Positions 3,811 to 10,875 of a stretch of DNA of 43,452 nucleotides are shown piece by piece. How positions within the stretch are numbered: the stretch's first letter is position 1; each line of letters starts with the position of its first letter. The notes below the pieces were generated by a model that searched no databases, was not told where the DNA came from, and saw nothing but the letters and a program-made list of their open reading frames with translations. The stretch lies in assembly GCA_947588895.1 (NCBI GenBank), contig CANQBF010000006.1, forward strand, positions 1 to 43,452, read 5' to 3'. The DNA is from an uncultured Bacilli bacterium. GTDB taxonomy: Bacteria > Bacillota_I > Bacilli_A > RF39 > UBA660. Made by a program: the position numbers and the translations under genes.

Positions 3811-5547
3811 ATGAAAAATAAAATAGTCTTAAAAATATTTTTCTTTTTAACATTATTTTTATTTAATGTCATGTTTTGCCATGCTGAAATATATCGAGCT
3901 AAATTAACTGGTAATGCCGTTAATTTAAGAAGTGGACCAGGAACAAACTATTCTTCATTAAAAACATTACAAGTTAGTACGGAATATAATATGGTTGATA
4001 ATACTTTATATCCGGATGAAGGTGGATGTGAATCTGGTTGGTATAAAATTTATTATGAAGCTAGTGCAACGGGATATGTATGTAGTAAATATGTTACAGT
4101 TTCTACATTAGTATTTAGCGAAGAAGCTAAAACGGATTGTGAAAGCAAATTAAAAGAAGCAGGTTTTCCAGTTACTTATTGGACTGGTTTATGTAGTTTA
4201 AAACAGGTTCATCCTAACTGGGAATTTAGTCCCGTATTTACCGGTCTTGATTGGAGTAGTGCGGTGGAAGCTGAAAGTGCTTGTGGTAAAAGTTATATAG
4301 CGAGTAGTATTCCAACCAATATTGATAGTACGTGTAAAAATGAATATACCAAAACTTGGTATCCAGCCTCATCAACCGCAGTAGCATATTATATGGACCC
4401 TCGTAATTGGTTTTCCGAAAATACTATTTTTCAATTTGAATATTTAAAATATAGTGATGTTTTAAAAGATAAATATGTTGAGGCTGCAAATAATATAATT
4501 AAAAATGCTGAATTTTATAAATATCATATTGGTTTAGGTAATAATTTAGGTGAAATAATTAATCAAGCATCTTTACAAGCCAATATTAGTCCAATATTTG
4601 TTAGTAGTAGAATATTACAAGAACTAGGTAATCAAACATCTTTATATAATCTATATAGTGGGGTATATAGTGCTCAAAATAATGAATTTTTAGGATATTA
4701 TAATTTCTATAATTTTGGTGTCACAGATTGTTGCGCTACTAGTAGAGGTGCCACAATTTGTGGTCTTGAATATGCTAAAAAGAATAGTTGGAATAGTGTT
4801 TATAATGCTATTTATGGTGGAGCCAGTCAAATTGCTGCTTCTTATATTGCTGTCGGTCAATATAATGGTTATTTACAAAAATTTAATGTTGTACCTGTTC
4901 AAAGTTCAAAATTATATGGTCACCAGTATATGACTAATGTGGCAGCACCATCAAGTGAAGCTAAAACAACATATAATTCTTATAAAAATTTAGGAGTTTT
5001 AGATAGTGCTTTTGTTTTTTATATCCCTGTTTATAATAAAATGGATAATTCATTTTATGCTGGAGGAAGTGGAGCAGTAGATACTCCAGATGATCCTAAT
5101 ACTAAAACGACATTAGATATTAATACTATAGTTGTTAGTAGTGGTTATAAATATCAAAGTAATCTTATAAGTGGAATACCTTCAAATACTGATGTAAATA
5201 TTGTTAAAGGTAATTTAGAAAGTATTGCTGGTTCTGGTAATGTTATGATTAAAAATAAAGATGATGTTCTTGTAAGTGATGGTTTAATTGGTACAGGATT
5301 TAAAATAACTATTAAAAATCAAGATTCAGAAGCAACTTTAACAGTTGTTATTAATGGTGATACATCAGGTGATGGTATAATTAATGCCTTAGATTTATTA
5401 CAAGTTCAAAAAAATATATTAGGAACATATGAATTAAGTGGTGTCTATCAAAATGCTGGAGATACATCTGATGATGGTAACGTTAATGCGCTAGATTTAT
5501 TACAAATTCAAAAAAGTATTTTAGGCACATATACAATTAATTATTAA
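3811..5547 (+). CDS. Secreted SH3b/glucosaminidase peptidoglycan hydrolase with C-terminal dockerin
   Basis: A 578-residue exported wall hydrolase. In order: signal peptide (residues 1-26, ending CHA); an SH3b-like domain (about 30-100, NAVNLRSGPGTNYSSL); a region with YMDPRNWFSENTIFQFE, typical of Bacillota glucosaminidases; a GH73-like catalytic core (about 240-385) with the probable catalytic Glu in SRILQELGNQ and a YNFYNFGV motif; a beta-rich linker domain (about 430-510); and a dockerin (about 513-573). The dockerin has two calcium loops, GDTSGDGIINALDLL and GDTSDDGNVNALDLL, with Asp/Ser/Asp/Asn/Asp at ligand positions 1, 3, 5, 9 and 12. The partner cohesin-like protein is encoded 10 bases downstream. 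Cleavage between GlcNAc and MurNAc is the family activity; the exact bond here is not shown. Confidence 0.88.
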   Translation: MKNKIVLKIFFFLTLFLFNVMFCHAEIYRAKLTGNAVNLRSGPGTNYSSLKTLQVSTEYNMVDNTLYPDEGGCESGWYKIYYEASATGYVCSKYVTVSTLVFSEEAKTDCESKLKEAGFPVTYWTGLCSLKQVHPNWEFSPVFTGLDWSSAVEAESACGKSYIASSIPTNIDSTCKNEYTKTWYPASSTAVAYYMDPRNWFSENTIFQFEYLKYSDVLKDKYVEAANNIIKNAEFYKYHIGLGNNLGEIINQASLQANISPIFVSSRILQELGNQTSLYNLYSGVYSAQNNEFLGYYNFYNFGVTDCCATSRGATICGLEYAKKNSWNSVYNAIYGGASQIAASYIAVGQYNGYLQKFNVVPVQSSKLYGHQYMTNVAAPSSEAKTTYNSYKNLGVLDSAFVFYIPVYNKMDNSFYAGGSGAVDTPDDPNTKTTLDINTIVVSSGYKYQSNLISGIPSNTDVNIVKGNLESIAGSGNVMIKNKDDVLVSDGLIGTGFKITIKNQDSEATLTVVINGDTSGDGIINALDLLQVQKNILGTYELSGVYQNAGDTSDDGNVNALDLLQIQKSILGTYTINY

Positions 5548-5557
5548 GGAGGAATAC

Positions 5558-6994
5558 ATGAAAAAATATTTAAAAATCTTATTAATTAGTATTTTATTAT
5601 TACCTATAATGGTAAATGCAGCATCAGGTAAAATTACTGTTAGTAGTACAAGTACAGTTGTAGTAGGTAATAAAGTTACAGTAACAGTTAATTTAACAGG
5701 TAGTGATATTGGTAGTTGGGAAATGACTTTAAATTATGATAAAAGTTATTTACAATTAACTAATTCATCAGCAGAAGCTGGTGGAACGGTTATGGTTAAT
5801 TCATCTTCTAAAGCTATTACATCTAAAAAATATACTTTTACTTTTAAAACTTTAAAAAAGGGAAACACTACTGTTTCAGTTAAAGGTTATGAAGCATATG
5901 CTTTTTCAGATATGCAAGAAATAAATTTAACTAGTAGTGGTAAAACAATTAAAATTATTACCCAAGATGAATTAGAAGCTAGTTATTCTAAAGATAATAA
6001 TTTAAAAAGTTTAAGTGTTGAAGGATATGAACTTGATAAGCCATTTGCTAAAGATACTTTAAATTATAGTGTTACAGTTCCAGAAGGTACTAAAAGTGTT
6101 AAAATAAATGCTCAAGAAAACGATAGTAAAGCTAGTGTTAGTGGTGATGGTGATGTTAATGTTACTGAGGGTGCTAATACTTTTAAAATTGTTGTAAGAG
6201 CAGAAAATGGTAGTGAAAAAACATATACTTTAGTAGTTAATGTTATTGATCAAAATCCCATTAATGTAACTATAAATGATTTAAATTATACGGTTATTAA
6301 ATTAAGAGATAATTATGAATGTCCGGATGCTTTTAATGAAAGTAGCGTAACAATTAATGATTTAGAAATTCCATCTTGTTATAATGAAAACTTAAACTAT
6401 CAATTAGTGGGTTTAAAATTAGAAGATGGTACAATTGAAAACTATATTTATAATAATGGTAAATATGATAAATATAATGAAATAATAGGTACTAGTTTAA
6501 AATTAATAATTTTAGACTATAATGGTAATATTGAAGGTTTAGAAAAAACAACTTTAGAAATAAATGAAAATAAATATCCTGTATTTAAAACAAGTAATTC
6601 TCATAATTATGTAGTTTATGGTATTAATGTTGAAACAGGTAAAAAAGATTTTTATAATTATGATACAATTAATAAAACATTTACTTTATATGATAATAGT
6701 AATTTAAAAGATGTTTTACAATTAAATAAAATGTATTTATATATAATTATTGCATTTGCAGCATGTTTATTCTTTGCAATTATTTGTGTTATATCATTAC
6801 TTAATAATAAGAAAAAGATTCAAAGATTATTAAAAGAAACTAAACGTAAAATGGATGAATTACAAGAAGAAAGATTAAGAGAAGAAGAAGAAAAACAAAA
6901 AGAAGAAGTTAAAGAAGTAAAGAAACCTAAAAAGAAAAAGAAAAGTAATAAAAAAGTAGAAAAAGATAGTGATGAAAATCATGAAGATGAATAA
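5558..6994 (+). CDS. Membrane-anchored protein with cohesin-like and cadherin-like domains
   Basis: A 478-residue cell-surface protein. In order: signal peptide (1-22, MVNAA); a cohesin-like beta-sandwich (about 25-135; VVVGNKVTVTVNL, SWEMTLNYDKSYLQL and KKYTFTFKTLKKGNTTVSV fit the cohesin pattern); a cadherin-like beta-sandwich (about 148-232; LKSLSVEGYEL ... YTLVVNV); an unassigned extracellular region (235-385); one membrane span (about 391-413); and a highly charged Lys/Glu cytoplasmic tail (414-478), probably coiled-coil. A very strong AAGGAGG overlaps the stop of the dockerin hydrolase gene. The obvious inference is that it docks that hydrolase at the membrane. The cohesin call is by pattern only. 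Confidence 0.8.
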   Translation: MKKYLKILLISILLLPIMVNAASGKITVSSTSTVVVGNKVTVTVNLTGSDIGSWEMTLNYDKSYLQLTNSSAEAGGTVMVNSSSKAITSKKYTFTFKTLKKGNTTVSVKGYEAYAFSDMQEINLTSSGKTIKIITQDELEASYSKDNNLKSLSVEGYELDKPFAKDTLNYSVTVPEGTKSVKINAQENDSKASVSGDGDVNVTEGANTFKIVVRAENGSEKTYTLVVNVIDQNPINVTINDLNYTVIKLRDNYECPDAFNESSVTINDLEIPSCYNENLNYQLVGLKLEDGTIENYIYNNGKYDKYNEIIGTSLKLIILDYNGNIEGLEKTTLEINENKYPVFKTSNSHNYVVYGINVETGKKDFYNYDTINKTFTLYDNSNLKDVLQLNKMYLYIIIAFAACLFFAIICVISLLNNKKKIQRLLKETKRKMDELQEERLREEEEKQKEEVKEVKKPKKKKKSNKKVEKDSDENHEDE

Positions 6995-7475
6995 ATTTAT
7001 TAAAGAATTAATTCCCTATATTATTGTCATTATTATAGTTATTCTAATAAGAACATTTATTGTTACTCCGGTTATTGTTAATGGTGATAGTATGAAACCA
7101 ACATTAAATGAAAATGAAATATTACTATTAAATAAATATGATAAAGAATATAAACGTTTTGATATAGTAGTATTAGATAAATCAGTGGAAGGAGATAATC
7201 TTATTAAAAGAATTATTGCTCTTCCTAATGAAACATTAGAATATAAAGATGAAAAATTATATATTAATGATAAAGAAATAACTGATAAATTTAATTTTGG
7301 AACAACTAAAAAGATAGATAGAGTAACTTTAGGAGAAGACGAATATTATGTTATGGGAGATAATCGAAGTATATCACTAGATAGTAGAATATTAGGTAAA
7401 ATAAATAAAACTCAAATTGAAGGTAAAGTAAATTTTACTTTGTTTCCTTTTAATAAATTTGGAAAAATTAAATAA
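6987..7475 (+). CDS. lepB: Type I signal peptidase
   Basis: Membrane serine protease that removes signal peptides from exported proteins. One N-terminal span (LIPYIIVIIIVILI) precedes the catalytic Ser motif NGDSMKPTL. The general-base Lys lies in KRIIALPNE, and the family box D is MGDNRSISLDSR. About 162 residues is a normal Gram-positive size. The reading frame overlaps the end of the cohesin-like gene. ATG 6972, 6981 and 6987 are all possible and no ribosome-binding site decides, so translational coupling is likely; I use 6987 because it leaves the usual short charged N-terminus. Its place among secreted proteins fits its role, and it may process them. Confidence 0.9.
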   Translation: MNKFIKELIPYIIVIIIVILIRTFIVTPVIVNGDSMKPTLNENEILLLNKYDKEYKRFDIVVLDKSVEGDNLIKRIIALPNETLEYKDEKLYINDKEITDKFNFGTTKKIDRVTLGEDEYYVMGDNRSISLDSRILGKINKTQIEGKVNFTLFPFNKFGKIK

Positions 7476-7518: not shown

Positions 7519-7551
7519 TTTAATAGATAATAGAAGTGTAGGTTGTATAAT

Positions 7552-10500
7552 ATGAATAGTATTGTAGAAAAATTTAAATTAAAAAAACTCTTATTATTAG
7601 TAGTAATAACAATATTATGTTGTGTAGTATTAGTTATTCATAATACGAAGGCAGAATCAGCCAAACCAGCAAATGAGGCTTTTGAAGATTATAATTTTTA
7701 TATGGAAATTATCGATAAATATAATTATATAAATAAAAAAAGTTACGAATATAATCATAATTTGACAGATGAAGAATTATCAACAATAACTGAATTAAAT
7801 GCTGGCACAGGAACAAGTTCCATGTCACCGATAATATCAATTAAGGGAATAGAAAAATTAACTAACTTAGAAGATTTTAGACTTCAAAATAGTTTAACTA
7901 ATAAAATGGATTTTTCAAAAAATTTAAATTTAGATACTTTAGTATTAGATATAAATCAATTAGAAAATTTAGATGTCACAAAAAACGAAAATTTAAGATT
8001 ATTAAATATAGGAAGTAATAGAATATCTAATATTGATTTGACTAATAATTTAAAATTAGAAAGATTAGAAGCTTATTATAATAAAATTACCTCAATGAAT
8101 GTTACAGCGAATAAGAAATTAAAATATATAAATTTAACACATAACCCAATTAGTAATATTGATTTAAGTCAAAATAGTGAATTAATGGAAATAGATTTTG
8201 AATCAACTAATATAACTCAATTAGACATTAGAAATAACACTAATTTAATTAACTTAGATTTGGATAATAATAATATTAATACTCTAGATTTATCTTTTAA
8301 TAATAGATTACAATCATTACATTTAAAAAATAATAATTTAACTAATTTAGATTTATCACATAATAATGATATTACCCAAATGTATGTTGATGGAAATCAT
8401 TTAATGTCATTAGATATGAGTAATATGAACCCTATATATTGGAACGATGAATATATTGGAACTCAAACAATAGATTTACCTGTAAAAGTAGTAAGTAATA
8501 ATTATTCTTTGAATTTAAAAGAACATGATAATAATTTAAATCCAGAAAGAGTAACTATAACAACTGATAATGTAAATTATGATAATAAGACAGGTATTAT
8601 AACATTTTCAAATAAAATAGATACTATAAGTTATAAATATAATACTGGAATTAATGATGTACATATTATAGTTAATGTTTCATTAAAATATCCAACAAAA
8701 CTTAATAGTTTTTATATAGGTAATACTGCTAATGATGTATATACAAATTCATTAAATGTAAACATTCATTTAGAATCTGAAAATAGTAATGCCACTCATT
8801 ATTGTATTAGTACAGAAAATAATAGTGAACATTGCGACTGGAAATCTTATCGTGCAAGTGCAACATATACCCTAACTCCTGGTGATGGTGAAAAAACACT
8901 ATATGCATTCATCAAAAATAGTGATGGTTTGATTTCAAATGCTAAAAGTGATAGTATTATCTTAGATACAACTAAACCAGTAGTTCAAAGTGTATATATT
9001 GGAGGAAGTAATAATCCTGTTTATGCGACTAACACTAGTTCAAATATTTATTTTACATATCAAGATAGTGATGTAGCAAGTTATTGCATAAAAGATACTA
9101 ATGACAATAGTAATTGTACATGGAATAATGTTACAAGTAATACTATGACTATTCCATATACTTTAACAAGTAATAATGGTAATAAAGTAGTATATGTTTT
9201 TCTAAAAGATAGAGCAGGTAATATTTCTTTAGGTAAAGAAGATACCATAATTTTAGATACAATAAATCCAACAATTGATAAATTCTATATTGGTGGAAGT
9301 AATAATCCAGATGTAATTACCGATAATAATACTAATATTTATTTAAGTTGGCAAGATGAAGATGTAGCTAGTTATTGTATTAAAACGGAAAATGATATTA
9401 GTGATTGTGTATGGAATAATGTAAATGGTAAAAGTATTAATGCTTCTTATAATGTAGATGAAGTAAATGGAACAAAAACATTATATGCTTTTATTAAAGA
9501 TAAAGCTGATTTAGTATCAAGTGTAAAAAGTGATACTGTATTATTAGATTCTAAAAAACCAATAATAGATATCTTTTATATAGGAGGAAGAACTAATCCA
9601 GAAGAAATTGGAGATACAAATACAATAGTTTACTTAAAATGGAGTGATACTGATGTTGTTAAATATTGTATAAATACTGAAAATAACGCCAATAATTGTA
9701 CATGGAATAATACATCTAATCAAGAAGTAGAAACTGAATATATTTTACCAGGAGTTAATGGTGAAAAAACATTGTATGCTTTTCTGAAAGATTCATCAGG
9801 TTTAATATCAAATGGTAAAAGCGATACAATAACTCTAAATTCAACAAAACCATTAATAAAAAGTTTTGCTATTAATAATAATGCTAAATATACAACAAAT
9901 AAAGAAATTAGTTATAAGTTAATAACTGAAGAAAATAATATTGTAAGTTATTGTATTAATACTGTTAATAGTAGTAATAATTGTAATTGGATTAATAATA
10001 GTAATCAAGAAATAAATGGTAATTATACATTAAATAATCCAGATGGTAATAAAACATTATATGTATATTTAAAAAATAATTTAGATGTTATTTCTAATGT
10101 AGCAAGCGATAGTATTATTTTAGATACAACTAAACCAATAATTGATGAATTCTTTATTGGAGGAGTTGATAATCCAACATATATAAATAATAAAAATACT
10201 ACTATATATAGTGTATTTAAAGATTTAGATGTTGTAAGTTATTGTATTAATACAATTAATGATAGTAATAATTGTACATGGAATACTATTTCTAGTAATA
10301 AAATAAATACAAATTATACTATTTCTAATAATGATGGTAATATAACATTATATTTATTCTTAAAAGATGAAGCAGGTTTAATATCTAATTCTAAAAGTGA
10401 TAATGTTATATTAGATACTGAAAAACCAACAGTAAAAGATTTCTATTTTGGAAATACTACTGTTAGTAATGAAAAAATATTATTAGAAATAACTATTACA

Positions 10501-10875
10501 GAAGATGATGTTATTAGCTATTGTGTTAGTGATAAAAATAATAGTAATAATTGTAAATGGAAAGAAGTTACAAGTAAAAATATTAAAGAAGAATATATAT
10601 TAACTGGTGGTAATGGTGAAAAATCAATATATGTATATCTAAAAGATAAAGCTGGAAATATTACAAGTTCTAAAGAATTAAAAATAACATTACAAAAAAG
10701 TAATGTTGGAAGTAGTGTAGATAATAATTTAAATGAAAATGAAGCAGATAAACCACTTAATAATAGTCCTCAAACTGGTAGTTTAGAAATAAGTATACTA
10801 ATTATTCTACTTGCTATAACATCAATATATTGTTTTATTAAATTTAAGAAAAAGAATTATATATTTAAAGTATAA
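7552..10875 (+). CDS. Giant surface protein: leucine-rich repeats, seven Ig-like repeats, SPQTG wall-sorting signal
   Basis: A 1107-residue exported protein, probably an adhesin or surface-display protein. ATG 7552 is preferred (TAGG at 7539-7542). After a signal or anchor segment (about 10-33), residues about 95-270 hold roughly eight irregular leucine-rich repeats of the internalin-like NLxxLDLSxN kind. A spacer follows, then seven tandem repeats of about 93-97 residues (about 380-1050), each carrying FYIGGxxNP, a paired SYCI...NNCxW cysteine motif, a LYxFLKD strand and an ILDTTKP junction. The C-terminus has SPQTG (about 1071), a hydrophobic span and a KFKKKN tail, i.e. a variant LPXTG/(S/P)PXTG sortase signal. 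No sortase gene is in the window. It has its own promoter and terminator. Confidence 0.85.
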   Translation: MNSIVEKFKLKKLLLLVVITILCCVVLVIHNTKAESAKPANEAFEDYNFYMEIIDKYNYINKKSYEYNHNLTDEELSTITELNAGTGTSSMSPIISIKGIEKLTNLEDFRLQNSLTNKMDFSKNLNLDTLVLDINQLENLDVTKNENLRLLNIGSNRISNIDLTNNLKLERLEAYYNKITSMNVTANKKLKYINLTHNPISNIDLSQNSELMEIDFESTNITQLDIRNNTNLINLDLDNNNINTLDLSFNNRLQSLHLKNNNLTNLDLSHNNDITQMYVDGNHLMSLDMSNMNPIYWNDEYIGTQTIDLPVKVVSNNYSLNLKEHDNNLNPERVTITTDNVNYDNKTGIITFSNKIDTISYKYNTGINDVHIIVNVSLKYPTKLNSFYIGNTANDVYTNSLNVNIHLESENSNATHYCISTENNSEHCDWKSYRASATYTLTPGDGEKTLYAFIKNSDGLISNAKSDSIILDTTKPVVQSVYIGGSNNPVYATNTSSNIYFTYQDSDVASYCIKDTNDNSNCTWNNVTSNTMTIPYTLTSNNGNKVVYVFLKDRAGNISLGKEDTIILDTINPTIDKFYIGGSNNPDVITDNNTNIYLSWQDEDVASYCIKTENDISDCVWNNVNGKSINASYNVDEVNGTKTLYAFIKDKADLVSSVKSDTVLLDSKKPIIDIFYIGGRTNPEEIGDTNTIVYLKWSDTDVVKYCINTENNANNCTWNNTSNQEVETEYILPGVNGEKTLYAFLKDSSGLISNGKSDTITLNSTKPLIKSFAINNNAKYTTNKEISYKLITEENNIVSYCINTVNSSNNCNWINNSNQEINGNYTLNNPDGNKTLYVYLKNNLDVISNVASDSIILDTTKPIIDEFFIGGVDNPTYINNKNTTIYSVFKDLDVVSYCINTINDSNNCTWNTISSNKINTNYTISNNDGNITLYLFLKDEAGLISNSKSDNVILDTEKPTVKDFYFGNTTVSNEKILLEITITEDDVISYCVSDKNNSNNCKWKEVTSKNIKEEYILTGGNGEKSIYVYLKDKAGNITSSKELKITLQKSNVGSSVDNNLNENEADKPLNNSPQTGSLEISILIILLAITSIYCFIKFKKKNYIFKV
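8686..10710 (+). repeat. Seven tandem ~285-bp coding repeats (Ig-like modules)
   Basis: The translated modules share a FYIGG start, two conserved Cys and an ILDTxKP end. They differ enough at DNA level to be old duplications rather than a recent expansion. The first and last modules are the most divergent. Confidence 0.8.

Follow-up and report, generated by a model that had tools for sequence, protein, structure and literature searches.

The two genes described here lie in tandem on the + strand of the window, by which we mean the whole stretch of 43,452 nucleotides analyzed. The first, hereafter the cargo gene (3811-5547, 578 aa), encodes a secreted protein that combines an SH3b domain, a SagB-like N-acetylglucosaminidase and a C-terminal dockerin. 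Inspection revealed a hydrophobic stretch at its start, taken as the signal peptide (residues 1-25, 3811-3885), and the enzyme has no other transmembrane segment. A bacterial SH3 domain follows (PF08239, residues 36-95, 3916-4095; SH3_3 at 34.5 bits), and then the catalytic region (residues 140-425, 4228-5085), assigned by profile and PDB matches. This part resembles the crystal structures of SagB and AtlE (6fxo, 4pi7, 6u0o_B and 6fxp, with E-values from 6e-11 to 4e-7), and the codon of its catalytic glutamate, Glu271, is at 4621-4623; the residue is E in 82/82 homologues. The Pfam profile search of the protein did not list PF01832 (Glucosaminidase), and the NCBIfam SagB model NF052642 scored 45.9 bits, far below its cut-off of 425. 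Judged by these profiles, the cargo is a distant relative of SagB and not SagB itself.

The type I dockerin (residues 516-571, 5356-5523) carries two calcium loops and a duplicated recognition helix. It matches PF00404 (Dockerin_1) at 41.1 bits, the cut-off being 22.9, and PDB dockerins at an E-value of 2e-6. Ala-Leu occupies positions 10-11 of both loops (INALDLLQVQK and VNALDLLQIQK). The original prediction, an SH3b/GH73-like glucosaminidase with two dockerin loops and Ala-Leu in both, is confirmed by these matches. Ahead of the dockerin, inspection identified an X-module-like spacer (residues 436-512, 5116-5346). A module of about 75 aa without a Pfam name is conserved at this place in unrelated cargo (loci L097, L146 and L147, besides the window), and it resembles the X module of X-dockerin dyads.

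Ten bases separate the cargo stop from the ATG of the second gene, exactly as had been noted, and this gene, hereafter the dock gene (5558-6994, +, 478 aa), encodes a membrane-anchored cohesin protein. Its Shine-Dalgarno sequence, AAGGAGG (5546-5552), overlaps the cargo stop codon, an overlap from which translational coupling of the two genes is likely. The dock starts with a signal peptide, again a hydrophobic stretch seen by inspection (residues 1-21, 5558-5620), followed by the cohesin domain (residues 22-135, 5621-5962), a cadherin-like beta-sandwich domain matching the PF12733 profile (residues 149-228, 6002-6241) and a conserved region that reaches from there to the membrane and contains a YGxNxxTG motif (6242-6742). 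A single hydrophobic stretch forms the predicted transmembrane helix (around residues 396-414, 6743-6799), in agreement with the membrane anchor originally proposed, and a charged cytoplasmic tail of 64 aa with a net charge of +4 ends the protein (6800-6991). In a promoter and terminator scan, sites were no commoner than in shuffled sequences. The last 26 bp of the dock gene are shared with a signal peptidase I gene (6969-7475). An S26 signal peptidase gene occurs in 0/86 of the relatives' loci and was therefore rejected as a conserved partner of the pair. Soon after the signal peptidase gene comes a leucine-rich repeat (LRR) and repeat surface protein of 1110 aa with an LPxTG-like end, PQTG (7543-10875).

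The fold of the dock N-domain

The original prediction had read a cohesin pattern in the first domain of the dock and proposed HMM and structure comparisons, both of which we ran and both of which agree with it. In a search of the reading frames, PF00963 matched 5630-5881 at 29.1 bits (cut-off 24.1). An hmmscan of the whole 478-aa protein listed no cohesin, in contrast to the frame search and to searches with isolated domains; with phmmer, the dock cohesin gave weak matches to the PDB (E 0.11). We then modelled the N-domain with AlphaFold2 from six sequences (pLDDT 93.4). Cohesins alone filled the top 28 rows of the structural alignment, with Z-scores from 13.2 to 10.9, and many of them superposed at about 2 Å over 110-114 residues; against 1g1k_A, for example, Z was 12.4 and the rmsd 2.0 over 113. 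According to the model, therefore, the N-domain has a cohesin fold.

Among the homologous N-domains, 47/82 matched PF00963 at E<=0.01. Profile-profile comparison related each of the four N-domain classes to the cohesin class with 96-98% probability, and class to class with at least 96%, the adjoining cadherin-like domain, used as the control, giving <1%. One divergent N-domain, from Clostridia (L065), was modelled as a shorter, general Ig-like sandwich; its best rows were CARDB, PKD and transglutaminase domains (Z<=9.8), and no cohesin appeared in its list of structural matches. In view of the profile-profile links, this one model does no more than raise the possibility that N-domains lacking a Pfam cohesin match have changed fold.

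Conservation of the pair and of its cargo

The cargo dockerin and the dock cohesin are the sole dockerin and cohesin matches in the 1.1-Mb genome (82.9% complete). A search of this genome for other dockerin proteins that could share the dock, as had been suggested, thus returned the cargo dockerin alone. We looked for the pair among relatives, which are mostly metagenome-assembled genomes. Within the family, 145 genomes were searched, almost every one from a genus of its own; 109 had dockerins and 90 had PF00963 cohesins. Reading from the dockerin side gave 82 pairs, in which the two genes are separated by -28 to +24 bp. A dock-side profile, built from the cadherin-like and juxtamembrane parts alone, matched 162/193 genomes of the GTDB order, the sampled genomes being all from one family. 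This added 80 docks, of which 79 were readable, and every one of the 79 had a dockerin-ended enzyme directly upstream. The arrangement also occurs in other families of the class. Because the genome holds a single dockerin and a single cohesin, and the pair is conserved across many genera, chance pairing is excluded. The closest named relatives (L063 and L064) are uncultured Bacilli MAGs whose isolate names start with Lapin, and therefore they are probably from rabbit.

The slot upstream of the dock is filled by a SagB-like enzyme in most genomes, by a PF01832 glucosaminidase in others and by a GH25 muramidase in one. To judge from their sequences, all docked enzymes hydrolyse glycan strands: the enzymes are of three types, but they share one class of substrate, the glycan strands of peptidoglycan. 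Envelope genes are often found near the pair, with Glycos_transf_4 downstream in 10 loci and LytR_cpsA_psr homologues in 31/86. In three Clostridia loci (L065, L066 and L068), a third gene, downstream of the dock, encodes another SagB-like glucosaminidase (357-361 aa) that itself has an N-terminal transmembrane segment, so that a docked and a directly anchored form lie next to each other.

Covariation and joint replacement of the interface

We compared distances between domains across 77 genera by partial Mantel tests, with the catalytic and cadherin-like distances partialled out. Dockerin and N-domain distances were correlated (partial r=0.589), a value reached in 0/5000 permutations, the best of which gave 0.225. 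The dockerin showed r=0.029 with its own catalytic domain and r=0.064 with the other domain of the dock. The recognition positions, assumed here to be those canonical for type I dockerins, accounted for this signal: given the rest of the dockerin, they correlated with the N-domain at r=0.70 (0/2000), and the remaining dockerin positions at r=-0.04. Within one protein the two recognition helices agreed at 6.85 of 8 positions, compared with 3.18 between proteins. By sequence comparison, the dockerin recognition residues change in step with the partner N-domain and not with the catalytic domain.

The same relation was seen when the interfaces were sorted into classes. In 160 pairs, four dockerin motif classes matched independently clustered N-domains almost one to one (QK with cluster 2, 87 pairs; Y-K with 4, 28; LR with 6, 21; ILR with 5, 9), and QK dockerins were never paired with another N-domain class. 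In a tree built from the conserved part of the dock, 7 independent pairs on supported branches changed in the same direction for the Y-K class and 0 in the opposite direction (p=0.016); the QK class had too few pairs on this tree. Two classes are present inside the window's own genus. When genomes of the same genus were compared, 58 pairs differed in dockerin and N-domain alike; a difference confined to the N-domain was seen in 0, and one confined to the dockerin in 3, all borderline.

Two genomes of one genus, G239 and G110, reveal how both halves can change together. Their catalytic parts are 95% and their dock bodies 94% identical, in contrast to 38% for the dockerins and 39-40% for the N-domains. 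The DNA of the two loci is 90.6% identical as far as the dockerin start and again 86.5% identical from the start of the cadherin-like domain onward; the roughly 550 bp in between, exactly from dockerin to cohesin, cannot be aligned. The matching block in the window is contiguous (5356-5995, +) and comprises the dockerin, the stop codon with the Shine-Dalgarno sequence, the dock signal peptide and the cohesin; in G239 and G110 the pre-dockerin module lies outside the swapped cassette. Between G110 and G187, of the same genus, 67-83% identity is maintained across the block, and therefore the cassette has a G187-like source. One event can exchange dockerin and cohesin because the 3' end of the first gene adjoins the 5' end of the second. 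We consider it fairly probable that this wall-complex interface is diversifying, with many mutually exclusive private classes, some of whose N-domains have possibly changed fold, and with the ~550-bp cassette exchanged horizontally while enzyme and anchor stay unchanged.

A proposed tether for a wall enzyme

Our model, to which we assign a probability of about 0.8, suggests that the two genes encode a private, one-to-one tether that would hold the glucosaminidase near the membrane and whose matched interface classes could be replaced together. The glucosaminidase would be secreted and fold outside the cell, where its calcium-loaded dockerin would bind the cohesin that forms the outer end of the dock protein, carried on a cadherin-like stalk and one transmembrane helix. 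The wall-cutting enzyme would then be kept by the membrane where new glycan strands emerge and would trim or release them, a logic comparable to that of SpdC positioning SagB in Staphylococcus aureus. As matched dockerin and cohesin classes diversify, a single recombination would replace lock and key together. As a guess, privacy is perhaps favored to avoid the capture of neighbors' secreted hydrolases. We infer the dockerin-cohesin binding, the membrane-proximal location and the role on glycan strands. Some points count against the tether. In one genome, G066 (locus L149), the dock is kept beside an enzyme that has many SH3b repeats and no dockerin, so that wall binding has possibly replaced docking there. 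The related Clostridia N-domain was modelled as a general Ig-like sandwich and not as a clear cohesin. Finally, the cargo might bind the wall through its SH3b domain and act away from the membrane.

The dock could instead be a minimal anchoring scaffoldin, as in cellulosomes, serving several dockerin enzymes for polysaccharide digestion with the glucosaminidase as one client. PMC11557425 lists single-cohesin proteins with a C-terminal transmembrane helix as possible anchoring scaffoldins, some relatives have up to 12 dockerins, and dockerins are also carried by an M6-like protease and by LRR proteins. We nevertheless consider this reading very unlikely, given one dockerin and one cohesin in the window's genome, a single dockerin in 64/109 of the dockerin-positive relatives, and an adjoining cargo that is always a glycan-strand hydrolase and never a plant-polysaccharide enzyme. 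A surface assembly that displays the enzyme outward against other cells or debris, for nutrition or competition, would also fit the signal peptides, the stalk-like dock, the SH3b wall-binding domain and the diversifying interface. Such a membrane anchor would, however, hold the enzyme beneath the cell's own wall; moreover, envelope-biosynthesis genes are common nearby, the catalytic domain is of the SagB type, and the presence of the pair in nearly the whole of an order with small genomes points to a housekeeping task, all of which makes outward attack very unlikely.

The original prediction had joined a dock for a wall enzyme to a tail for signalling or positioning, and the two parts fared differently. 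A dockerin-cohesin membrane dock is well supported by the predicted cohesin fold, the conserved pair, the dockerin-cohesin covariation and the constant cargo class. The tail, 64 aa and charged here and up to 173 aa in some relatives, could make the dock a sensor that reads enzyme docking or the state of the wall. Among 77 homologues, however, its length is not conserved, ranging from 7 to 173 aa with fewer than 20 aa in 15/77, its sequence also varies, and a profile search of the dock found no signalling domain. The case for a signalling role is weak, and a sensor is the most improbable of these readings.

Cohesin-dockerin pairs are known mainly from cellulosomes, many-part machines for plant fibre. 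The pair described here shares with cellulosomal type I pairs (Clostridium thermocellum CipA/Xyn, C. cellulolyticum) the domain families, the canonical calcium loops, the duplicated recognition helix and the cohesin fold. It differs from them in having one cohesin and one dockerin per genome, a wall hydrolase as cargo, a transmembrane anchor and an interface exchanged as a cassette. In the 82.9%-complete genome of the window, a single cohesin match stands in place of a several-cohesin scaffoldin, and a single dockerin, on a glucosaminidase, in place of many dockerin-bearing plant-polysaccharide enzymes. The best structural matches of the dock cohesin are the non-cellulosomal cohesins 2jh2 and 2vo8 of Clostridium perfringens, which likewise place cohesin-dockerin binding outside cellulosomes; those cohesins are presumably parts of glycoside hydrolases that act on the glycans of the host, not of a membrane dock.

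In the peptidoglycan release complex of S. aureus, the membrane partner SpdC positions SagB (PMC10581084). Both systems have a SagB-like glucosaminidase and a positioning membrane partner, but SagB itself associates with the membrane, and SpdC is an integral membrane protein resembling CAAX proteases (PMC10581084), whereas our enzyme is free of transmembrane segments beyond its signal peptide and the partner consists of a cohesin, a cadherin-like domain and one transmembrane helix. The NlpC/P60-XDoc protein RflaF_05439 of Ruminococcus flavefaciens was reported to bind the ScaE cohesin (PMC3573020), so there too a wall-hydrolase-like protein, in that case a peptidase, is held on the surface by a cohesin-dockerin contact; it differs in that this cohesin, attached by sortase, is shared with other clients in a large cellulosome, and there is no dedicated two-gene pair. 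The proposed anchoring scaffoldins of PMC11557425, whose partners are unclear, have the same broad anchor design, and the available text describes neither an adjoining wall hydrolase nor a matched interface. Dockerins on wall-hydrolase-like proteins (PMC3573020) and single-cohesin transmembrane proteins (PMC11557425) had already been noted. The open literature searched contained no account of a pair dedicated to wall glycosidases that is one-to-one, order-wide and made up of matched classes exchanged as a cassette. What is new here is that private interfaces match and are exchanged together, in a single cassette spanning the gene boundary; this most unusual feature was beyond the reach of the original prediction.

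Our model implies that a cohesin-dockerin contact serves, one to one, a probable core task of wall building across an order of bacteria with reduced genomes. The relatives would provide a natural collection of matched protein pairs with specificities altered by recombination, of use for studying how interfaces evolve without loss of function and for orthogonal protein tethers. It also becomes testable how wall hydrolases are kept at their sites of action and why an interface of this kind diversifies.

Several other arrangements were seen among the relatives. The SagB-like catalytic domain is apparently circularly permuted in L103, L126 and the loci of G020, G024, G026, G029, G031, G054, G071, G094, G099 and G130: the C-terminal block PWxSPKKAIxGGA...HQYM...APSSEA comes right after the SH3b domain, ahead of the HPNW/YMDPRN part, and many of these domains are paired with the LR dockerin class. 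Locus L147 (G015) encodes, at 4344-7217, an M6-like metalloprotease (HEFGH) that ends in the spacer module and a Y-K dockerin, with no adjoining dock. In L142 (G140), an LRR protein with a dockerin is followed by a protein with a cohesin-like domain and a dockerin and then by a transmembrane cohesin-like protein, a series that resembles a chain of adaptors. In G126:C10, G010:C8, G083:C6, G131:C4 and others, giant proteins (about 2,400-3,200 aa) show both a cohesin and a dockerin match in a single frame.
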